From: Anodontia alba
Taxonomy: Eukaryota; Mollusca; Bivalvia; Lucinida; Lucinidae
Reading direction: 5' to 3'
Length of the DNA stretch: 64,000 nt
Assembly (NCBI GenBank): GCA_964016985.1
Contig: OZ024837.1
Location: 34,937,622-35,001,621 of the forward strand
Shown here: in pieces, positions 22,960 through 56,807 of the stretch
How the letters are laid out: each line of letters opens with the position of its first letter
Numbering within the stretch: the first letter of the stretch is position 1
Notes under the pieces: generated by a model
What the model was told of the DNA's origin: nothing
The model's database searches: none
The model's input: the letters and a program-made list of their open reading frames with translations, nothing else
Program-made: the position numbers and the translations under genes

Positions 22960-24700
22960 GAATATCAGATCCGATTGCCTTTAGCAATTCAGAATCTGAT
23001 GTTCTTTGAAGAGTTTCAAGATTGCCACCCATGGCCACCATCTTGGATATTGCAATTCTGAATCTCCATGTCACCCCAATGCCTCCCATTAAGTTTCGGC
23101 TCAACCTGACTTACTGTTTGGGAGGAGATGTGATTTGAAGAATGTCAAGAGGGCGGCCATCTTGAACATTGGAACAGAAGAATTTTAGCAATTCTGATTT
23201 TCCATAACACCCCAATGCCTCCCATCATGTTTAAGCTCAATCAGACATACCGTTCGGTAGCAGATGTGATTTGAAGATTTTCATGATGGCTGCCATGGTG
23301 GCCATCTCGGATATCAGAATGGAACCATTTTAGCAATTCTAAATCTCCATGCTGCCCCAATGCCTTCCACCGTTTCTGCTCAATCCAACTTACTGTTCGG
23401 GAGCAAATAACAATTGAAGACTTTCGAGATGGCCGGAGGAGATGTTGTTTGAAGATTTTCAAGATGGCTGACAAGGCGGCCATCTTGGATATCGGAACTG
23501 AATGATTTTAGCAAATCTAAATCTCCATGTGGCCCCAATGCCCCCACAAAGTTTGGGCTCAATCTGACTTAGGGTTCGGGAGCAGATGTGGTGTCAATAT
23601 TTTCAAGATGGTAGGCGGCCATCTTGGATAGCCAAACGGAATGATTTAAGCAATTCTGAATCTCTATGTCGCTCCGATGCCTCCCATCAAGTTTTGGCTC
23701 AATCGGACCTACGGTTTGGCTATGGCGGCCATCTTGGATATCGGAATGGAACAATTTTAGCAATTCTGAATCCCTATAATGCTCCAATGCCTCCCATTAA
23801 GTTTGGGCTCAATCTAATTTATGGTTTTGGAGGAGATGTCATTTGAAGAATTTCAAGATTGCCCCCTTGGCGGCCATTTTGGATATCGGAACGGAACGAT
23901 TTTAGCAATTCTGAATCTCTGTGTCACTGTGATGCCTCCCATCAAGTTTCAGCTCAATCCAACTTAAGGTTTGGGAGGAGATGTCGTTTGAAGAATTTCT
24001 AGATGGCTGCTGTGGCGGCCATCTTAGATATTGGAACGGAACGATTTTAGCAATTCTGAATCTCTGCGTCACTGCAATGCCTCCCATAAAGTTTTGGCTC
24101 AAGCCGACTTACGATTTGGGAGGAGATGTTGTTTGAAGAATTTCAAGATGGCCGCCAGGGCGGCCATCTTGGATATCGAAACATAACGATTTTAGTAATT
24201 CTATATCTCTTTGTTACTGTGATGCCTCCCATAAAGTTTTGGCTCAATCCGACTTACGGTTTGGGAGATGTTGTTTGAAGAATTTCAAGATGGCTGCCAT
24301 GGCGGCCATCTTGGATATCGGATGGGAACGATTTTAGCAATCCTGAATCTCTGTGTCACTGTGATGCCTCCCATCAAGTTTCAGCTCAATCCGACACGGT
24401 TTGGGAGGAGATGTTGTTTGAAGAATTTCAACATGACGGCCATCTTAGATATCGGAACGGAACGATTTTAGCAATTTTGAATTTCTGTGTCACTGTGATG
24501 CCTCCGATCAAGTTTCAGCTTAATCGGACTTACAGTTTGGGAGGAGATGTCGTTTGAAGAATTTCTAGATGGCTGCCATAGCGGCCATCTTGGACATAGA
24601 AACGGAATGAATTTAGCAATTCTGAATCTCCATGTTGCCACAATGCCTCCCACTAAGTTTCAGTTCAATCCATCTTATGGTTCTGGAAGAGATGATGAAA
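22960..24700. repeat. ~142-bp minisatellite, 12 units, with YY1-like palindromes
   Basis: The marker ATGCCTCCCATCAAG recurs near 23081, 23214, 23360, 23540, 23679, 23788, 23932, 24077, 24221, 24362, 24498 and 24642, mostly 133-146 bases apart. Each unit has GGGAGGAGATGT, TTTGAAGAATTTCAAGATGG, a CCGCC/GGCGGCCATCTTGG palindrome and ACGATTTTAGCAATTCTGAA. Later units are more alike than the first four. Frames on both strands are repeat artefacts. Confidence 0.9.
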
Positions 24701-24712
24701 AAGTGAAAAATT

Positions 24713-24765
24713 AACGACGGACGGACGAACGACCGACGGACGAACGGGCGGACGACGGACAACAG
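24713..24765. repeat. (ACGG/ACGA)n simple repeat
   Basis: GACGGACGGACGAACGACC-type tract. It is followed by a small hairpin, ACCTGGAGC / GCTCCAGGT. Confidence 0.85.
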
Positions 24766-24828
24766 GCCATAACATAAGCTGACCTGGAGCAAAGCTCCAG
24801 GTAAGCTAATAAAAATCACCAGACACCC

Positions 24829-25103
24829 CAACACAAAAACATCCTTATATAATTTTACCCCCTTAAACCCAACTTTTATATAGTAAAACTGGGGTTTACA
24901 GGGTTATGCATTATTGTTCTTATTTCTGATAAAAAATATATATTGTGGGTACTCGTTAGAACCGCCTCGTCGAGGCGTTTCTATCGAGTACCCACAATCT
25001 ATGTTCTGAGCAGAAATGAAAAATATCAGATTTTTTTATCTGAAAATTTTCATTTTTTGGTGGTAAAGTTATCGATATATTTGAATAGGCGTGTCTACGT
25101 AAT
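24829..25103 (-). mobile_element. Family A foldback MITE (left block)
   Basis: A decayed copy whose peculiarities (GATAAAAAATATATATTG, GGCGTTTCTATCG) are shared exactly with 35800-36074. It was therefore present before the block was duplicated. Confidence 0.85.
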
Positions 25104-25323
25104 ACCTTATGTTAATACTAGGCCGTTCCGAAGAGTGAAGGTAGAAGAACCCATCTGGCATAAATGAGTTAAACATAAAAGTAAAGGTACCAAGGACATG
25201 CAATAATTATGAAGAATTGCCTTCCCGAGGCACCAAACGAAGGAGAGATTAGGAACAATTATGTTATAATGACAAGGCAAACGCCACATATGAAACCACC
25301 GACGCATAAACAAAGAAGAAATA

Positions 25324-25543
25324 CACTTCAACCTCTTTATAACACGGGTCGTTATAACACGGTTTTGGATATAACACGATTCAAAGATGGATCCCATAAA
25401 TGTATAGATTGTATTGAAAAATGACCATAAATGGTCATTTTTCAATATAATTTATACATTTTTGTTTGGATATAACACGGATGTTTAAGTAACACGGTTT
25501 ATGCTATGGACCCCAACAATAGTGTTATAAAGTAGTTGTGGTG
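25324..25543 (+). mobile_element. TA-flanked MITE with CACTTCAACCTCTTTATAAC ends
   Basis: Left CACTTCAACCTCTTTATAAC mirrors right TTATAAAGTAGTTGTGGTG, with TA outside both. A near-perfect hairpin at 25393-25448 pairs TTGAAAAATGACCA with TGGTCATTTTTCAA. This is probably a pogo-group relative. Confidence 0.7.
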
Positions 25544-25893
25544 TACAACAGAGGAGTACTCTTGGAACGGTAGTAGAACACTACTGAGGTTTTAAACCAG
25601 TTTTTTCTCGCCCTAATTCAATCCAAAACATAAAAACAATAGAAACAGAAAGAACACAGAAAGCAAAGTGGTCAGCCATTGAAGATGACACCAATGCTAG
25701 AATTACGACAGACTCAGACAGTAAAACATAGTTGCTAGATGTTCTTTGCAAGTCTTAGTAAGTCTGAATGTTATAACAAATAAAGAAGAAAATTAATAAA
25801 TACAGATAGTATCGTGTCACAACGTTTGCATTACATGTAGCCTAGTAAATTTCAAATTTGCGATTTTATGGCAGCATGTGTGTGCGTGTGTAT

Positions 25894-25925
<32 letters not shown>
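25894..25925. repeat. (GA)n microsatellite
   Basis: Pure GA run, shorter than its counterpart at 36856-36902 in the right block, so the copies have drifted in length. Confidence 0.9.
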
Positions 25926-25930
<5 letters not shown>

Positions 25931-26453
25931 ACAGATTTTATATATGCCTATGTATTATATTTGTGTAAACTACCAGAGTCCACGTATTTTTCTTATCCAG
26001 TTGTGTTATCTATTGATTAGACGCACGCTTTTTTTTATATTAAGCATACTATAGCAAATTATGGCAGTATGATAGCGGACAATTATTAAAGATATATAAG
26101 TGATTTCAATTATTTCTCCCGAGGATATTTCCTCGCATACAGACGTTATGATATTTTTTCTGTATGTTTTAATTAATATTTCTAGACTAATTAATCTTAT
26201 AGTTTCAGGTAGCCCATTTTGTTATTTTTTATCGGGCCTCTGTTAATCTACTGCATAGTCCCTTGGGGCAGTTTTCTACACGAAGGTTTATCCACTGAAC
26301 TCAACTTACCTCGTTACAGTTCTAAACCGGATATTGGTAAAACAATTTACAACGAAGACAAGAAAATGGGTTACTGCTTTTGAACAACCGAGATGAGCAC
26401 AACATACCTTCAAAACAGTCTGAGTATCGAAACGGATTGACAATGGTCTTCAG

Positions 26454-26785
26454 ACACGTGACCGTTACAAGATGGCGGAGACTATCGCTATTTTTCGGAG
26501 AGAAGTGAAATTTGACTTTAAAATGTGATTTTTGGAGAATCAGAAATGGAGGACTTTTGATAAACTGTGACAGATGTAAAACTGTAATGATGTGTCGATA
26601 GTTATTCAGGAAATTTTGTTCGGAATATAAGATTTTCAAACATTTTTGTAAGTCATATTTACATAATACGATCTCTTATGTAATACCACCTATTACTACC
26701 TATTAACCTTCCATGAGTAGCTAACGGGTTGTGTTAAACCAGTCCTCGCCAAAATTTCTCTTTCTACAGTGGATGTCCATAAGTT
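26454..26785 (+). promoter_or_regulatory. Retrotransposon 5' leader with YY1-like initiator box
   Basis: The leader opens ACACGTGACCGTTACAAGATG, and AAGATGGCGG at 26469-26478 matches the YY1 core AANATGGCG. In L1-type elements a YY1 site just inside the 5' end directs accurate initiation. The position 15 bases in from the presumed start fits the same role here. An E-box CACGTG is at 26455-26460. Functional use is inferred. Confidence 0.5.
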
Positions 26786-27774
26786 ATGAGCGGCGAGGGA
26801 ACACCTATATCAGTTGGCAAGAAAAGAGAACTGTCTTCTCCTGAGTTTGACAACGAGTTAAAAAAGAACAAAAGCATACATATACCGTTACCGGCCTCAC
26901 CGGATTCTGATCTGGAACTGGACAAGTCTGAATCTGAGTTTAAAGATACAAGTGAAGTATCGGCGTCAGAAATATCAGACGGTATGGAAGCTACGCCCAC
27001 CCCTGAAATAGAACCTGTATCACATATATCCATCCCGCCATCAGAAATGATGAAAATCGCTGAATTGTTAAGGGACACTTTCAAAGGGGAAATAAACAAT
27101 TTAGTAGATACTGTCGTCTCTGGTGTCTTAAAAGGACTGAACGAGAGAATCGGTTTCTTAGAAAAAGCCAATGAAGATCTTAAACGTGAAAATGAGATTC
27201 TATCTTCACGGGTGGAGGTTCTTGAGCAGCAGGCTGATCAGGCTGAGCAGTACAGCAGAAGGAACTGCCTGCGAATCTCTGGTTATAAGGAGCAACAGAA
27301 TGAAGATACGGACGAAATCGTCATGAAATTGGCATGAGACATTGGTTGTAACTTGCAGCTTACAGATATTGATAGAAGCCACAGAATTGGCAGACCTTCA
27401 GGGAGAGTGACAGACCAAGGGACATTATAGTCAGATTTTCTACTTACAGAAACCGCCAAAAACTCTACAAACAGCGCACAGCTTTAAAAGTCAATGGACA
27501 TCCTGGAGTTTTTGTAAATGAAGATCTGACTAAATTACGGAGTGGTCTATTATATAACGCTCGTAAATTACTGAAAGCCAAACTTATAAAGGGTGCATGG
27601 TCTTCCGACGGAATCATTCTTGTCAAAGACAAAAATGACAGTGTATCTCGTATCTGTAGTGCTTCTGATTTGGTTAAGTTCGAATCCAGTGACCCAGGAC
27701 CTGCTACTGTTATGAAGGACCAACCATTAGCGACCGTCAGGGGCAGTTATTCCAGGATTGCCCAACGACGTTAG
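26786..27774 (+). pseudogene. Retrotransposon ORF1 (coiled coil + RRM-like RNA-binding protein), broken
   Basis: The intact first part is 183 residues. An acidic, Ser/Pro-rich N-terminus (residues 1-80) is followed by a heptad coiled coil (about 85-155, ..LEKANEDLKRENEIL..). Next comes SRRNCLRISGY, the start of the RRM-like domain of L1-type ORF1 proteins. A TGA at 27335-27337 ends it. The same frame continues with ..TDIDRSHRIGR.., then shifts near 27408-27414. The new frame carries RPRDIIVRFSTYRNR and NEDLTKLRSGLLYNARKLLK to a stop at 27774. Proteins of this class coat the element RNA as oligomers. One stop and one frameshift make it non-functional. Confidence 0.85.
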
Positions 27775-27858
27775 TTCATCCAAAACTCACCAGCAATCTA
27801 AATCTGGAATTTAGTTTGGTCAAGTTACTGTACACATAATACTGTTTCCCGGTTTTAG

Positions 27859-28137
27859 CATCACGAAGACATGCCTACAAAATTTTGACCCCCTCGAGCC
27901 CCACTTTTATACAGTAAAACTGGGGTTTACAGGGGTATACATTATTTTTCTTATTTCTGCTCGGAACATGGATTGTGGGTGCTCGTTGGAACCGCCTCGC
28001 CGAGGCGGTTCTAATGAGTGCTCACGGTCTGTGTTTTGGGCGGAAATATGAAGAATATCAGAATTTTTTATCTGAAAATTTTCAATATTTTGGTGGTAAA
28101 ATTTTCAATATATTTGATTAGGCATGTTTTCGTAATG
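27859..28137 (-). mobile_element. Family A MITE inside the retrotransposon, A-to-G hypermutated hairpin
   Basis: Complete copy, CATCACGAAGACATGCC to GGCATGTTTTCGTAATG. Against the other copies the hairpin arms show 12 A-to-G changes on the + strand (27963, 27964, 27970, 27981, 27988, 28020, 28026, 28027, 28031, 28039, 28042, 28053) and only two C-to-T (28015, 28022). The unpaired 3' part is near consensus. + is the sense strand of the retrotransposon, 85 bases downstream of ORF1. Confidence 0.9.
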
Positions 28138-28167
28138 TGTTACCCTGCTTTACTCTGAAAACTTTCT

Positions 28168-28240
28168 AGCAGGCGGTGTGGACTCGAATCGGACTGTTTC
28201 TCTAGAACCAGTCTGATTCGGGTCTGAACTGCTTGGCATG
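28168..28240. repeat. Family PB hairpin inside the retrotransposon, A-to-G changed
   Basis: Aligned with the AACAGTGTAGACCCAGATC hairpin elsewhere, the left arm has A-to-G at 28172, 28173, 28175, 28180, 28186 and 28191, plus one C-to-T and one G-to-A. The right arm has GGTCTGAACTG for GGTCTACACTG. Confidence 0.7.
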
Positions 28241-28739
28241 CAAATATGTGTTGTGCATTTTATACACGAAAAACGAGTGCAAACGATCGGAGGCGTATAG
28301 CATATTCTAAATTGTTTCATCTGGTCTGATTTGCCCTGATTATTTACAAACAGCTGTAAAAGTTCCCATTGTTTTAGCACGTCTACGCTAAATATTGCTG
28401 TGGCCTATGGTTCTAGTTTTTATATGGGACTGTTAACGTGCCGAATAACCGTTTTATTTACTTATTTATGACACTATTATCTTCAGTTTCTGCGGGACGC
28501 GTTTACTTTTGTTCTAAATGTCATCTGTCCGTCTGATCCTATATGCAGAACTGTATTATGTCTCGGAATAAGATTAATTTCAGCAACATAAGAGCCAGTT
28601 GTTCTGAAAGGCATTGGTTCGCCATTGTTGAAAATCTTGACGTTGCTTAGGCGTAATGTAACGTCGGCTTGGTCCTATGCGTTATACCAATCCATTATAT
28701 GTATATATGTAGTAAATATTCTCTTTGGTTGTTCTTTCA
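28241..28739. other. Retrotransposon spacer, unassigned
   Basis: No coding pattern or repeat family recognised between the hairpin and the TA/TATG tract. Confidence 0.4.
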
Positions 28740-29427
<688 letters not shown>

Positions 29428-31444
29428 CGTCGCTATCTTTCAGCTGCTAACGTCATTACGTATAAGTTGTTTAACCGCACATTGTGTAACACTTGGTAGC
29501 TGGTGCGTAATGTTTTGAAAATAGTTGAAATAATGAAAACTTTTATTGAAAGCGCCGTATGACAAACAGAATATTGCATTCGTGATCTTATTATACGAAA
29601 TGACACGAAGCTTGCTGTATATACAGCCGTAGTCTCAATTTGTTCTAATATATATTGTTGTGTAACGTTGCTGCCATAAAATGCTCACTTGTACTCTAAG
29701 TATATTTTTTTCAGCCATAAATAATAGGTGGTTACTTAAGCAGTGGTCGCTGTTTGGAGATCAGTTGTAGGCTAGAGCATGTTTTGAGCGCGAGTTAATT
29801 ATTTGCTTGCAGCTGTCCGGCGGACTGTGATTTCACTGCTCCAGTCAAATTAACGTTTAATACTGAAGGATCGAAACAATAATTAACAAAGTATGTATTT
29901 AAACGTACAATAGTTTAAGACAATGAAGGTCACCCGAAGAATTCGCTAGTGCAAAGTTGTGCATATACCCGAGTGCGGTTACTGTACGGTGCAAGGGAGG
30001 CAATTACGATGTAACTATACTAAGCTTTTGTTGGTTGTCTCCCATAGGGTACTCGGTAGTCTAAGAACTTTTAACAGTTCATTTTACTGCATTGTGAATG
30101 AATGTTCTTTACCATTTTTTCTGTTCTGTTATCTAGCTTGTCAATGTCTCATCTGGTTCATGTTATATTCAACGGCACCCACATGCGTACTTTTGTGGGT
30201 GAGTGTATGGGTCCGAACGTGTGTGCGTGCATTGGAGGGTGAGTGCACGTATGTGTGCGAGTGTGCGTTTTGTATGCGGGAGTGCGCACATGTGCGTGCG
30301 TGCGCGCGCACACATACACACATACACATAAGTACATAATATTTACATAACTGCCTGAATTTACTGTTGAATTAATGTCCGCTTTCTGCTATGGTCATTT
30401 TATCAGTCAGTATATTATTATTCTGTCTTCAACTGGTAGGCTCTCACACGGGTGAACATCCCGACAACCAGTTAGCCATTGCCTATGTTTGTCTAATGTT
30501 CATGATGATCGCTTGTTATTGTTGTCTCTAAATACCGTATAGACATGTAACTATTATAATACCACTCAGCATATTTGCTAAACTGTTAATCAGCAAGTCA
30601 GTCAGTCAGTCAGTCGGTCAGTCAGTTAGACAGTAAGCATGTACCTAGTTAAACATATTCACTCTATAAATAGCTGTCTCCCGACCGACCTCTTTCTCTT
30701 ATATCAAAATATTTGTTTAGTCAATATATTACTTAGTTATATTTTAGCCAGTTGGCCAGTCAAACAGGCCGTCATATATATCTATATTGAATTATACAGC
30801 CTGACTTTATTAATGACGTCTCATAACAGTTTTTTTTCTTATTTTCTTATTATTACTATTTCAAATCATTTAAACTGAATTTGATCTTACAGTTTATCTT
30901 GAAATTATATCCATTGTTCCACGCTAAAGCTTTCAGGCAGATAGTCAATTTAAGCCGAGCTGCCAGTCAGTCGGTCGGTTGGTCAGCCAGTCTTATACAA
31001 TTCAGATATGTTTAAGATGATTGACTGAACTCCTGAGGGGCTGTCTTCAAGAGAGTGTACCAGTCAGGGGTTAGTCTCCATTTCGTTAATAAAATGAGCA
31101 GTCTAACCAAGGTTAACTGCATAAACCTAGATCCAGTGGGTATAATTGCTTACAAATCAGTCTCAGCAAATATTAGAACATAACCTATTACCGACAACAT
31201 CTAGAAAATTTGTCAGTAGTATATTTATTGTTGTGTAATTAGTTTATGTTTCCTCCTGATATTTCTTTCTCTTTTTGCATGTGTTTTACCTTATCATATT
31301 TTTGTTCATCCTGGGGCTATGGATGGGGGGGGGGGGGGGGGGGGGGGCGGGGTCACCCTTGGCATTCTACTTGGTTAGACTCAACAATAATAGAGTTGGT
31401 CTGATGGCACTTACTCTGTTTCTTCTCTTCCTAACGACAATCAC
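29428..31444 (+). other. Spacer before ORF2
   Basis: No protein recognised. It holds a GT/GC-rich patch (30200-30330), (TCAG)n (30598-30632) and a G-run at 31325-31347. It could be a second untranslated leader for ORF2, an older insertion, or a captured flank. Confidence 0.4.
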
Positions 31445-34400
31445 ATGATAAATGTAGTATGCAGAGATAAGCTAGCCATCATGCCGACTTACAATCGCAT
31501 GTTTAGGTTTAATCTTTTCATACACCTTTTGGTATTTATGCCCTTATATCAGAATGATAGTTATGGTTTCTCAGTGCTCATATCCGTCCAGCAAACCGAG
31601 CACTTATATTCTAGTATTACTACACGCAATAACTGTAAGAGGCTACTCCAAGGCAAATCAGGTAAAGCTAATAAAATTTTCACTTTTTGGATGATTTTCT
31701 GCACACTATATCTTGTATCATGTACATGGCTCATCTTTCTCTTGTTACTTGCTGGCGATATACACAGCAATCCCGGTCCATCAACATCGTCTTCCGTAAG
31801 CAGCGTCTCAAGTTCATCAACAAGCATGTCAAACAGTCTCTTTAGCACTCTGAATGTAGCTCACAACTTATCGTTTGTTCATTACAACGTACAAAGCATT
31901 CTTTCTAAACTCGACACTTTGTATGCTGAACTATACGAGTTTGATATTCTAGCCTTCACTGAAACTTGGCTTAATCCGGCCATAGACCCAACTGACCTTT
32001 TACTTGACTCATACTATGAACCTGAACGCAAGGATCGACCGGGGGACAGTCATGGTGGTATCATGATATACATTAAAGAAGGAATTCACTACAAACGCCG
32101 TGAAGATCTCGAACCACGAAATGTTGAGTGCATTTGGCTTGAATTGGCTAACTGCAATAGGAGGTTATTATTTGGTCTTTTTTATCGGCCTCCCAGTTCT
32201 GACGCAGAATATTTAACTAGCATAGAAAATTCAATTGCACTTGCAGTTGACACAGGTATATAAGACATAATAATTACTGGTGATTTTAATTTAGATATAT
32301 TAAATGAACGTACTGCAAGAAAGATCGAAACAATATGCACCCAGTATTCCTTTTTCCAGGCCATATGCCAACCTACCAATTTTACCGAACACTCAGCAAC
32401 ATTAATAGATATATTATTAGTTAACAACAAAAATCACTTAATACTCAGTGGAGTAGGTGATCCTTTTCTTAATCAACAACTTAGATATCATTGCCCAATA
32501 TATGGAATTTTTAAATTTTCTAAAACCAAAACCCATTCTTTTACTAGAAGAATTTGGAGGTACGACCAAGGTAACTATGATCGTCTTCGAGAAAAAGCTG
32601 CTGCCATCGATTGGGACGCTTTGAGAGGTAATGATATTGACTCATATGCAGCGAATCTACATTCTACAATTACAAACTTGGCATCAGAATGTATTCCAAA
32701 TAAAATAATTAGAATTAAACATACTGAGCCTTCTTGGATAAACGCAAAAATAAAACAGTATATACGTAAACGTAAAAGAGCCTATCGAAAAGCTAGGCGA
32801 ACAAATACGGAGTTACACTGGACGCAATTTAAAACTTTAAGGAACAAAACTGTCTTACTTATTCGAGATGCTAAAAAAGCTTTCCATGACAAAACTGCTT
32901 CAAAGCTAACAAGTGGCGAACTTTCAGCTAAAGACTGGTGGACGGTTCTTAAAACTTTCATTTCTCCACAGTCTAAAACATCTATACCACCCCTCGAAAA
33001 TGACGGCTGTATAAGTTCTGACGAAAATGAAAAGGCTAATATCTTAAATAATGTCTTTCAAAGCCAGAGCAGTCTAAACAATCAATATCCAATCCTCCCC
33101 CAAATACTTCCTACTGCTGTCACCAACGAACTAAATAATATTGAATTTACCCGAACCGAAGTCGAGACTATACTCAAATCTCTCCCTATTGGTAAAGCTT
33201 CAGGTCCTAACAACCTGAGTAATCGTATTCTTCGTGAACTTGCTCACGAAATTTCTTCTCCTTTTTGTAACTTGTTTAATCAGTCTATCAACATGGGTTT
33301 TGTACCATCTTCTTATAAAGAAGCTAATGTCTGCCCAATACATAAAAAAGGTGATAGATCTATACCTTCTAATTACCGACCTATATCACTACTTAACTCA
33401 GAAAGTAAACTTTTCGAAAGACTTGTGTTCAAATATTTATACAATCATTTGCGCGACAACAATTTGCTATCTTCTCTTCAGTCTGGTTTTATACCAGGAG
33501 ACTCAACAGTGAATCAATTAACATATCTTTACAATACTTTCTGTCAGGCCCTTGACTCAGGTAAAGAAGTTAGAGCTGTCTTTTGTGACATCAGCAAAGC
33601 CTTTGACCGAGTTTGGCATGAGGGATTGTTACTCAAACTTAAGGCAGCTGGCGTCACTGGGAAAGTTCTTGCATGGTTTAAAAGTTACCTTTCCGATAGG
33701 AAACAAAGAGTTATTCTTCCAGGGGTTACATCTGACTGGGCTTATGTTTGTGCTGGGGTCCCTCAGGGTTCAATTTTAGGGCCGCTGCTGTTTTTACTAT
33801 TTATAAATGACATAGTACTTGATATCGGATCAAATATAAGGCTCTTTGCGGACGACACTAGTCTTTACATTATCGTCGATAACCCTATTACTGCTGCTAA
33901 TTGTCTCAATATTGATCTCGAAAGAATTTCAAAATGGGCTGCAACTTGGCTTGTAACTTTCAATCCGACCAAAACCGAAAGTCTCCTTATTTCGCGCAAA
34001 TTAAACAAACTTAATCATCCACCAATCATAATGCAAAATCTTCAAATATCTGAAGTAGAGTTTCACAAGCATCTCGGGATGTATTTCTCTAACGATTGAC
34101 ATGGCACCACCATATAAAATATATTTCAGAGAAAGCTTGGGGTAGGATTAATGTAATGAGAAAACTCAAATTTAAATTAGACCGCAAATCTTTGGAAACA
34201 ATCTATACAGCATTTATCAGACCTTTACTTGAATACGGGGATGTAATATGGGACAATTGTTCTCAGTACGAAAAACAAGATTTAGAAAAATTCCAACTTG
34301 AAGCAGCGCGCATAGCTACTGGGACAACCAAGCTTATTTCTATTACCGCATTGTACAAAGAAGTTGGATGGGAGTCACTTGAACAGAGAAGACAAACCCA

Positions 34401-34998
34401 CAAATTGACTTTATTTTTCAAAATGTTTTCCCATCTTACTCCTCTGTACTTATCCTCCCTTATACCACCATCAGTCAGTGACATGTCACGATATAATCTT
34501 CGCAACTCCGACCAATTACAGACTATTGATTCACGAACAAATCTTTACTTTAATTCTTTTCTACCCTCTACTGTGAGGGCTTGGAATAGTCTACCGGCCG
34601 AAGTGAAACAATCTCAAACAACACACTCTTTTAGATACTACTTTAACAAAAACAAAACACCTGTCCCCAAATATTATTATTCTAAAAATAGAAAAGCCCA
34701 AATTCTCCATACTAGATTACGAACGAACTGTAGCTCATTGAACCTGGACCTATTTTTAAAAGGTATAACTGACTCGCCTATGTGTAGATGTGGTAGTATT
34801 GAGAGCTCACAACACTTCTTTTTCCACTGTCCTTATTATCAGCAGCAGAGAAACGCGCTTCTAAATGTGGTTTCTACCTATCATAGACCTACTCTTGATC
34901 TTCTTCTGTACGGGGAATCCTCTTTATCATATGATGTAAATATGGTTATTTTTGAAAACATTCACCGGTTTATATTGAATTGTAAACGTTTTTCATGA
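31445..34998 (+). pseudogene. Retrotransposon ORF2: 2A-like, APE endonuclease, reverse transcriptase; broken
   Basis: From the ATG: a hydrophobic segment (residues 79-103), GDIHSNPGP (104-112) and a Ser-rich linker. The APE endonuclease follows (..VHYNVQSILSKLD.., DILAFTETWLN, GGIMIYI, LFGLFYRPP), then a TAA at 32261-32263. The same frame continues with ITGDFNLDIL and DILLVNN. The reverse transcriptase has YRPISLL, CDISKAFDRVWHE, GVPQGSILGPLLF and the catalytic FADD at 33845-33856. At 34097-34099 the frame ends at LGMYFSND and resumes in another frame (TWHHHIKYI...). That frame has a thumb-like region, WNSLPAEVK and a C-terminal CRCG..H....C motif, stopping at 34998. The enzyme nicks target DNA and copies the element RNA onto it. 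One stop and one frameshift kill this copy. Confidence 0.93.
31754..31780 (+). other. 2A-like ribosome-skipping motif in ORF2
   Basis: Codons for GDIHSNPGP directly after a Leu-rich hydrophobic stretch (LIFLLLLA). The canonical motif is D(V/I)ExNPGP; here His replaces Glu, while NPGP is intact. In 2A sequences translation separates between the last G and P. If active, it would release a ~111-residue N-terminal peptide with a membrane-type segment from the endonuclease/reverse transcriptase. Activity of the His variant is uncertain. Confidence 0.75.
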
Positions 34999-35492
34999 GA
35001 TGTTTTAAATACTGATATGGTCATGCGATTGCTTTACTACATTTATCCGTTGCAAACGGTATTATATTCCATGTTGGATGCCGGGTGCCCCGACCCCTCA
35101 ATCCAAATTTCCCACCTACCCCCTTCCCATCTCCCCCCTTTTACCCCTCCACCCCCACCGCCCCTTGTTTTGTCCATTTACATTTTCCTAACCTTTGCTA
35201 ACCTCAAAATGCTTTATATGAAATGATTACTATTTGGTGTAAAACTTTACATTCGATTTTCATCATTTTTATCACCCAAACATGTAAAAACAACACTTAT
35301 TGTTAATTATCACTACATAATGTTACTTGCTCCAATGTATCTTGCTTGAAATTCGCCATTATGTATACATGTCGATTGTTTGTGGGAGAAGAACTATATA
35401 AGTACTTGTGCTTTCGTTCTAATCCCAATTTGTATAATGACTTGCATCATATTGTAATGATAGTTATGCTATAATAAAATATGTTTAAACCA
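34999..35492 (+). terminator. Retrotransposon 3' region with AATAAA signal
   Basis: Non-coding, with a C-rich patch (35095-35165) and AATAAA at 35473-35478. It ends TATGTTTAAACC directly against the right 1.93-kb repeat. There is no long poly(A), as is common for CR1/L2-type elements. Confidence 0.6.
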
Positions 35493-35799
35493 AATCGGAC
35501 TTACAGTTTGGGAGGAGATGTCGTTTGAAGAATTTCTAGATGGCTGCCATAGCGGCCATCTTGGACATAGAAACGGAATGAATTTAGCAATTCTGAATCT
35601 CCATGTTGCCACAATGCCTCCCACTAAGTTTCAGCTCAATCCATCTTATGGTTCTGGAAGAGATGATGAAAAAGTGAAAAATTAACGACGGACGGACGAA
35701 CGACCGACGGACGAACGGACGGACGACGGACAACAGGCCATAACATAAGCTGACCTGGAGCAAAGCTCCAGGTAAGCTAATAAAAATCACCAGACACCC

Positions 35800-36074
35800 C
35801 AACACAAAAACATCCTTATATAATTTTTACCCCCTTAAACCCCACTTTTATATAGTAAAACTGGGGTTTACAGGGTTATGCATTATTGTTCTTATTTCTG
35901 ATAAAAAATATATATTGTGGGTACTCGTTAGAACCGCCTCGTCGAGGCGTTTCTATCGAGTACCCACAATCTATGTTCTGAGCAGAAATGAAAAATATCA
36001 GATTTTTTATCTGAAAATTTTCATTTTTTGGTGGTAAAGTTATCGATATATTTGAATAGGCGTGTCTACGTAAT
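35800..36074 (-). mobile_element. Family A foldback MITE (right block)
   Basis: Partner of 24829-25103, with the same private changes. The arms show no A-to-G excess. Confidence 0.85.
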
Positions 36075-36294
36075 ACCTTATGTTAATACTAGGCCGTTCC
36101 GAAGAGTGAAGGTAGAAGAACCCATCTGGCATTAATGAGTTAAACATAAAAGTAAAGGTACCAAGGACATGCAATAATTATGAAAAATAGCCTTCCCGAG
36201 GCACCAAACGAAGGAGAGATTAGGAACAATTATGTTATAATGACAAGGCAAACGCCACATATGAAACCACCGACGCATAAACAAAGAAACAATA

Positions 36295-36493
36295 CACTTC
36301 AACCTCTTTATAACACGGTTCGTTATAACACGGTTTTGGATATAACACGATTCAAAGACGGATCCCAAAAATGTATAGATTGTATTGAAAAATGACCATA
36401 AATGGTCATTTTTCAATATAATTTATACATTTTTGTTTGGATATAACACGGATGTTTAAGTAACAACAATAGTGTTATAAAGTAGTTGTGGTG
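36295..36493 (+). mobile_element. TA-flanked MITE (right block)
   Basis: Partner of 25324-25543, shortened by a ~20-base internal deletion; hairpin at 36365-36420 intact. Confidence 0.7.
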
Positions 36494-36855
36494 TACAACA
36501 GAGGAGTACCCTTGGAACGGTAGTAGAACACTACTGAGGTTTTAAACCAGTTTTTTCTCGCCCTAATTCAATCCAAAACATAAAAACAATAGAAACAGAA
36601 AGAACACAGAAAGCAAAGTGGTCAGCCATTGAAGATGACACCAATGCTAGAATTACGACAGACTCAGACAGTAAAACATAGTTGCTAGATGTTCTTTGGA
36701 AGTCTTAGTAAGTCTGAATGTTACATGTATAACAAATAAAAAAGAAAATTAATAAATACAGATAGTATCGTGTCACAACGTTTGCATTACATGTAGCCTA
36801 GTAAATTTCAATTTTGAGATTTTATGGCAGCATGTGTGTGCGTGTGCGCGTGTAT

Positions 36856-36902
<47 letters not shown>
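36856..36902. repeat. (GA)n microsatellite
   Basis: Pure run, longer than its partner at 25894. Confidence 0.9.
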
Positions 36903-36907
<5 letters not shown>

Positions 36908-37544
36908 TACAAATTTTATATGCATATATATTATATTTGTATAAACTACCAGCGTCCACGTATTTTTCTAATCCATTTGTGTTATCTATTGATTACACGC
37001 ACGCTGTATTTTTTTTTTATATTAAGCATACTATAGCAAACTATGGCAGTATGATAGCGGACAATTATTAAAGATATATAAGTGATTTCAGTTATTTCTC
37101 CCGAGGATATTTCCTCGCATACAGACGTTATGATATTTTTCTGTATGTTTTAATTAATATTTCTAGACTAATTAATCTTATAGTTTCAGGTAGCCCATTT
37201 TGTTACTTTTTACCAGGCCTCTGTTAATCTACTGTATAGTCTCTTGGGGCAGTTTTCTACACGAAGGTTTATCCACTGAACTCAACTTACCTCGTTACAG
37301 TTCTAAACCGGATATTGGTAAAACAATTTACAACGAAGACAAGAAAATGGTATACTGCTTTTGAACATCCGAGATGAGCACAACATACCTTCAAAACAGT
37401 CTGAGTACCGAAACGGATTGACAATGGTCTTCAGTCATCATCTAGACGATACGTGGTGGTTGTAAAAAGTATATACGGATTAGCAAATTACTTCACCTGT
37501 GTCAATGTTGATCTAATTGAATGTATTTACTGTCCGTAACTGTA

Positions 37545-55085: not shown

Positions 55086-55098
55086 CTGTACAGAATTA

Positions 55099-56369
<1,271 letters not shown>

Positions 56370-56526: not shown

Positions 56527-56807
56527 TACATTACGAAAACACGCCTATTCAAATATATTGAAAATTTCACTTCCAAAAAAACAAAGTTTGTAGATATAAA
56601 TTCTGATATTTTTCACATTTCTGCACAAAACATAGATTGTGGGTATTCGTTAGAACCGCCTCGACGAGGCGGTTCTAACGAGTACCCATGATCTATGTTT
56701 TTTGAACAGAAATAAGAATAATAATGTATACCACTGTAAACCCCAGTTTTACTATATAGAAGTGGGGTTTAAGGGGGTCAAAATTATAAAGGTATGTTTT
56801 CGTGATG
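56527..56807 (+). mobile_element. Family A MITE inserted in the RT fragment
   Basis: CATTACGAAAACACGCC to GTATGTTTTCGTGATG, complete hairpin (apex CTCGACGAG). It separates coding remnants of one reverse transcriptase, so it is younger than that element. Confidence 0.9.

Follow-up and report, generated by a model that had tools for sequence, protein, structure and literature searches.

The closest described systems are avian retroviruses, in which an inverted repeat shows ADAR-like (adenosine deaminase acting on RNA) A-to-G hypermutation of nearly 50% of its adenosines; in Rous-associated virus and avian leukosis virus, such changes in the inverted repeat of a retroelement are attributed to ADAR-type hyperediting (PMC12925331). 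A-to-G clusters in inverted-repeat duplexes are also described for metazoan ADAR hyper-editing, with a depleted 5′ G and, in invertebrates, a preferred 3′ A at the edited sites (PMC5625713). In a model of deaminase-driven reverse transcription mutagenesis, deaminase-edited RNA is reverse-transcribed into DNA (PMC11817618), and APOBEC editing of retroelements leaves a deaminase footprint in genomic DNA (PMC2873906). ADAR1 is moreover described as binding the ribonucleoprotein of the long interspersed nuclear element (LINE) LINE-1 (PMC12925331). Here we describe a related pattern in the bivalve Anodontia alba (Lucinidae). The window, that is the whole stretch of DNA that was analysed, comprises 64,000 nucleotides (assembly GCA_964016985.1, contig OZ024837.1, positions 34,937,622 to 35,001,621 of the forward strand; positions below are those of the window). 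It contains a LINE in which a miniature inverted-repeat transposable element (MITE), called family A, occupies the spacer between the open reading frames ORF1 and ORF2, and the central hairpin of this MITE carries a dense cluster of A-to-G changes on the LINE sense strand. The very probable explanation, and the best of those we considered, is that the LINE RNA underwent ADAR-type editing and that reverse transcription fixed the changes.

The locus departs from each of these systems. The avian viruses are infectious long terminal repeat retroviruses, whereas the changes seen here lie in genomic LINEs, in the hairpin of a DNA transposon, and at four sites. Metazoan hyper-editing is reported in RNA, while here the changes are fixed in the genome and the invertebrate preference for a 3′ A is not seen. 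The mutagenesis model was proposed for cancer genomes and not for LINE copies, and the APOBEC changes are G-to-A, made after reverse transcription, whereas the fixed changes at our loci include no G-to-A. Unlike in the ADAR1/LINE-1 association as it is described, the edited RNA here seems to have yielded new copies. A literature search of open-licence articles in PubMed Central, covering titles and the beginnings of abstracts, found no such fossils described in LINEs; other papers may exist.

The MITE in the LINE spacer (hereafter the target) has the following parts:

27859..28137, + strand: family A MITE, 279 bp, in sense orientation in the LINE spacer; no target duplication relative to the empty site
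27859..27877, + strand: left terminal inverted repeat of the MITE, 19 bp, 89% complementary to the right end
28119..28137, + strand: right terminal inverted repeat, partner of the left end
27943..27999, + strand: left arm of the central hairpin, with 5 A-to-G changes (27963, 27964, 27970, 27981, 27988)
28001..28057, + strand: right arm of the central hairpin, with 7 A-to-G changes (28020, 28026, 28027, 28031, 28039, 28042, 28053)

Its stem (27943-28057, 115 nt) was compared with the other copies of the family in the window. Twenty-eight were found and 26 used; the two partial copies left out carry one stem A-to-G and two T-to-C (22031), and five A-to-G, two T-to-C and 19-20 transversions from misalignment (7850). 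In well-supported columns, those with agreement among 60% or more of the other copies, the target stem shows 12 A-to-G changes and two C-to-T changes (28015 and 28022, both in the right arm), with no T-to-C, G-to-A or transversion. This count agrees with the preliminary description, which had been made from the window alone and had pointed to an A-to-G cluster in the hairpin arms set against two C-to-T changes. Without the 60% cut one T-to-C appears, at the polymorphic loop base 28000, and the stem also contains a one-base gap in a run of A. Each of the 26 other copies has at most 3 A-to-G, 2 T-to-C, 3 G-to-A and 3 C-to-T in the stem, and the copies at 24829 and 35800, for which the preliminary description had noted no such bias, have no A-to-G there.

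Given the background share of A-to-G among the changes of these 26 copies (17/144), the probability of at least 12 A-to-G in 14 changes is 5e-10. Over 508 tests of copy, region and substitution type the target gave the lowest value (4e-10), six orders below the lowest value of any other copy (9.7e-4). The same asymmetry is visible with no outgroup in the mismatches between the hairpin arms, which in the target are 14 G.T and no A.C, and in the 26 other copies summed 36 and 29, respectively. The rest of the target contains 3 A-to-G and 3 T-to-C, all in its 5′ part and about the background level (means of 1.7 and 1.6, totals of 44 and 41, in the 26 others). The 3′ part, said earlier to be near consensus, indeed contains no A-to-G.

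A search of the genome (1.86 Gb, 317 contigs) gave 4283 candidate copies, ordered by how closely they resemble the G-rich target in a single MITE orientation; the best 40 were scored and 30 loci were cut, the target among them. One of them, L003 (locus L032), is a sister LINE. Its MITE occupies the identical base position and has G at each of the 15 A-to-G sites of the target and T at both C-to-T sites. Relative to the target its stem has two more A-to-G changes and one A in place of a G. Two further LINE copies have an empty site, with neither MITE nor duplication. The first (L053, C7) has a left flank that is 97% alike over 519 bases, and the second (L052, C4) keeps just 32 LINE bases to the left of the site. 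In both, the junction reads straight through at TTTTAG/TGTTACC (27858/28138). The element combines features of a MITE, namely 19-bp inverted ends and 4283 first-look candidates in the genome, with an insertion that left no target duplication. Since a sister with the MITE and LINE copies without it both exist, the MITE joined a single LINE lineage and thereafter multiplied with it.

The copy closest to the target after L003 among the scored candidates is the plain copy L004 (93%), which has no LINE protein in the 9.9 kb fetched around it. L004 already carries both C-to-T changes and the G at 27988; these three changes therefore stand outside the burst. From L004 to the target stem there are 11 A-to-G changes and no other substitution (one base is absent in L004). 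In a tree built with the A-to-G columns removed, the target, L003 and L004 were grouped with support of 100/96.9. The preliminary description had proposed to look for a sister retrotransposon whose MITE sits at the matching position; L003 is such an element, and it carries the same G bases. It had also supposed that a progenitor with the MITE was edited and reverse-transcribed into this locus. The progenitor is borne out by the sister and by the MITE-free LINE copies, but the fixation did not occur on the way to this locus: because the sister shares the G bases, the edited hairpin would have been fixed in a progenitor that kept retrotransposing.

The pattern recurs elsewhere in the genome. We aligned 95 copies: the target and the 26 others of the window, 29 search hits, and 39 more that happened to lie in the fetched loci. 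Thirteen of them have 11-17 A-to-G and 0-1 T-to-C in the stem. The other 82 are plain, with 0-3 stem A-to-G (mean 0.63) and up to 5 T-to-C (mean 0.48); of the 12 target G bases, 65 of these copies have none and the rest no more than 3. The 42 MITE copies incidental to the fetched loci have means of 0.40 A-to-G and 0.81 T-to-C. All 13 G-rich copies are embedded in LINE sequence and sense-oriented. Their flanks separate them into four insertion sites:

F1: target and L003; LINE identified by DNA
F2: L005, L006 and L017; upstream of a LINE ORF2, identified by LINE proteins
F3: L012, L014, L016, L020 and L027; in the ORF1-ORF2 spacer of a third LINE, identified by LINE proteins
F4: L008, L026 and L031; at a LINE 3′ end, with an open reading frame matching zf-RVT (PF13966)

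The F4 assignment is based on the zf-RVT reading frame upstream in locus L037 and on 98% likeness in L045, and for L043 on the shared 3′ end alone. In the last of these (copy L026) the reading frame is absent, 494 bp of the 3′ end are common with L031, and an inverted 5′ piece is present. Inverted 5′ pieces are common in truncated LINE copies. Positions 926-1795 of L043 (reverse-complemented coordinates) comprise the F4 3′ end, an inverted 5′ segment and an A-rich tail, like twin-primed LINE insertions.

At these four sites the MITE occupies the same position in 2 (F1), 3 (F2), 5 (F3) and 3 (F4) copies; the MITE, as the substrate, was in the element before retrotransposition. The A-to-G strand is the LINE sense strand in 13/13 G-rich copies (L043 by its shared 3′ end alone). 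LINE context was also checked for 8 plain copies in 9.9 kb, for 17 in 3.3 kb and for the window copies. No LINE protein match was found for 7 of the 8 and for 16 of the 17, the exception among the latter being a 24-residue match near L021 (E = 0.002); the window outside the element gave one 54-residue LINE match (E = 2e-4), near the plain MITE at 56529. A Fisher test of 13/13 against 0/8 was not relied on, because members of one family are not independent observations.

The changes fixed at each insertion were then counted against the nearest plain copy when A-to-G is masked, which is L004 for F1, L024 for F2 and for F3, and the window copy 14694 for F4. With the stems pooled they amount to 44 A-to-G, one C-to-T, no T-to-C, no G-to-A and 5 transversions. 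The preliminary description had named two outcomes that would refute the editing explanation, and neither was seen: the A-to-G and T-to-C tallies in such copies are unequal, and no G-rich MITE subfamily was found outside retrotransposons among the copies aligned. These data show that the A-to-G changes of the sense strand are limited to the duplex, are tied to LINE residence among the copies examined and recur at four sites. Separately, additional LINE families have family A MITEs in the ORF1-ORF2 spacer or at a position upstream of ORF2 (L038, L039, L040, L042, L044, L034, L035 and L041); LINE spacers seem to tolerate MITE insertion.

The distribution of the changes was then set against what is known of ADAR. 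Folding of the consensus unedited RNA predicts a stem with almost no imperfections (-152.9 kcal/mol, z -24). In predicted folds of the whole target MITE, 15/67 paired adenosines are changed and 0/16 unpaired ones (p = 0.028); pooled over the four insertions, the values are 69/273 and 4/64 (p = 0.0003, with sites that recur across families and are not independent). A 5′ G is avoided in the pooled set, in which 5/28 adenosines after G are changed as against 56/109 otherwise (p = 0.001, the sites again not being independent); the target alone gives 1/7 and 11/26 (p = 0.18). ADARs are usually said to prefer a 5′ U or A, and the preliminary description had counted about eight of the twelve target sites as fitting. 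Depending on how the gap is placed 8 or 9 of the 12 do fit, but the preference does not hold up as significant (9/22 versus 3/11, p = 0.36). In the LINE bodies, A/G differences between sisters are in no strong excess over C/T differences: 15 and 25 in F1 (outside the stem and a TA tract described below), 63 and 81 in F3, and 36 and 27 in F2.

We infer that the enzyme was an ADAR and the edited molecule RNA. A LINE would first have received, between its ORF1 and ORF2, a MITE with a long, near-perfect hairpin. In the LINE transcript the hairpin would fold into double-stranded RNA, in which an ADAR-type enzyme could turn about one third of the adenosines into inosine. The reverse transcriptase of the LINE itself would read inosine as guanosine, giving new genomic copies with G at these sites. 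The edited copy presumably stayed mobile and passed its G bases on to the target locus and to the sister L003, which acquired two more, and the same process may have acted on MITE copies at the three further LINE insertion sites.

Several results weigh against this reading. The candidate ranking favours G-rich copies and is not an unbiased census. Among the plain copies, L046 has a weak 44-residue LINE match 3.5 kb away. F2 and F3 share their nearest plain copy, L024, and their independence rests on their different insertion sites and LINE families. In approximately unbiased (AU) tests on the columns free of A-to-G, a single clade of all 13 G-rich copies was not rejected (p = 0.10; 0.24 with a quick tree), nor was a clade of F1 and F3 (0.36). 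The variation within families is less one-sided, with 16 A-to-G, 2 T-to-C, 4 C-to-T, 5 G-to-A and 5 transversions in the stems. In comparisons of sisters, the ratio of A/G to C/T differences distinguishes stem from body in F3 alone (p = 0.008; F1 0.55, F2 0.46). Apart from the avoided 5′ G, the neighbour preferences match ADAR poorly: over 35 distinct stem sites pooled, the changed fraction is highest after C (16/20), followed by U (20/40) and A (20/49), and highest before G (17/24), followed by C (14/24), A (20/49) and U (10/40). Finally, all four families are changed at the same adenosines, as would be expected from a site preference of the enzyme but also from shared ancestry.

Shared ancestry is the core of the alternative that survives best, which we nevertheless consider improbable: a G-rich MITE subfamily exists, and this and other LINEs merely received members of it. 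The presence of G at the same sites in four LINE families and the AU result for a single clade both fit this possibility. However, no member was seen outside LINE sequence among the copies examined, despite a G-rich query. The nearest copies under masking differ by family, with the firm F1-L004 grouping on one side and 14694 and L024 on the others, and sisters differ by further A-to-G changes (16 against 2 T-to-C when polarised).

Somewhat less probable still is that a reverse transcriptase misread A in structured RNA, with no editing enzyme. Such misreading would be equally strand-specific, duplex-specific and linked to LINEs, and the neighbour pattern is no clean match to ADAR. The same specificity for A would, however, be needed across the proteins of F1 and of F2/F3, whose likeness is only about 40-80% where they match, as well as in F4, for which no reverse transcriptase was observed; the enzyme would also have to avoid A after G.

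Selection on the LINE RNA to keep the hairpin paired would let A-to-G and C-to-T survive because both give G-U pairs, and 14/14 changes of the target stem do keep a standard pair. This alternative looked serious until L004 placed both C-to-T changes before the burst, leaving 11 A-to-G against none, and 44 against one over the four insertions. Furthermore, in the other copies A-to-G and C-to-T stand at 17:22, which gives P = 0.0015 for 12/14, and such selection would not make the stem change faster than the remainder of the MITE. We therefore regard it as very unlikely. The least credible alternative of all is assembly error or a mutation bias of ordinary DNA, whether from GC-biased conversion, from asymmetry linked to transcription or from cruciform repair. 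Small excesses of A-to-G over T-to-C are known in transcribed DNA, but here T-to-C is zero, G.T to A.C is 14:0, a comparable bias is missing from the LINE bodies, hairpins of equal quality in other copies are clean and the same bases stand at the separate locus L003. Deamination of dA in R-loops was set aside because it predicts T-to-C on the sense strand; GC-biased conversion, APOBEC and sequencing error were set aside as well.

A second region of the LINE spacer is also rich in A-to-G:

28742..29425, + strand: (TA)n tract, 684 bp, in the LINE spacer; 111 A-to-G versus 3 T-to-C; counterpart in the sister at L032:2507-3151

Between the target and L003 the tract differs by 39 A/G and 3 C/T (61 and 4 in a wider alignment). 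The three further TA arrays on the list for the window are either pure or almost so, or else biased in the opposite direction, as in the array at 55097-55241 with 9 T-to-C, in the form of TACA units, and no A-to-G. The tract of the C7 copy gave no reliable alignment. A weak periodicity at lag 3 (p = 0.004) hints at slippage, and we therefore count the tract as suggestive only: it is a candidate for a second edited duplex, or for slippage in a compound microsatellite.

The LINE that holds the MITE and its surroundings have these features:

26457..35492, + strand: non-LTR retrotransposon (LINE, family F1) holding the MITE; the sister locus L032 aligns over 26461-35495 at 97%
26786..27337, + strand: piece of ORF1, interrupted; no Pfam match; 96-97% amino-acid matches in the sister L032
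31445..32263, + strand: piece of ORF2 with an Exo_endo_phos endonuclease domain (PF03372)
32621..34099, + strand: piece of ORF2 with an RVT_1 reverse transcriptase domain (PF00078)
34096..34998, + strand: C-terminal piece of ORF2; no Pfam match
24522..26456, no strand given: 1.9-kb direct repeat at the 5′ end of the LINE, resembling a target-site duplication
35493..37437, no strand given: second copy of the direct repeat, at the 3′ end of the LINE

Both the endonuclease and the reverse transcriptase domain of F1 were found, in interrupted frames. The ORF2 piece has 9 private amino-acid changes, of which one is assigned to A-to-G and 5 are ambiguous. The two direct repeats differ by 41 mismatches over 1910 aligned bases. 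Target-site duplications of LINEs are usually far shorter than 1.9 kb, and the repeats may be a very long target-site duplication or a segmental duplication. If they are a target duplication, about 1.1% change has accumulated per lineage since insertion, and 1.2 stem changes would be expected as against the 14 seen; on that condition the stem changes predate the insertion at this locus. Several records labelled Candidatus Thiodiazotropha contain LINE reverse transcriptases 55-70% like that of F1, perhaps host DNA in bacterial assemblies. Viral contigs scanned with two MITE patterns gave 0 matches, and those scanned with the reverse transcriptase piece gave no confirmed relative. A MITE match in a bacterial contig was discarded, as it covers 20 bases only, with no further MITE similarity.

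If the editing explanation is true, transient RNA editing in the germline is readable as a DNA record in an assembled genome, with the same MITE outside LINEs as a built-in control, and the pattern tells the transcribed strand and the extent of the element. It suggests that edited LINE RNA is still a working template. Dating of transposons, or their sorting into subfamilies, would then have to allow for A-to-G changes in nested repeats. A bolder extension, which we put forward tentatively and consider rather doubtful, is that the LINEs of this genome keep a long-term record of RNA editing in the germline. Each retrotransposition cycle would add A-to-G changes to any long duplex carried, such as the MITE hairpins and perhaps the (TA)n tract of the spacer, copies could be ranked in cycle number by their G content, and the element might itself benefit if editing weakens the double-stranded RNA that it forms.
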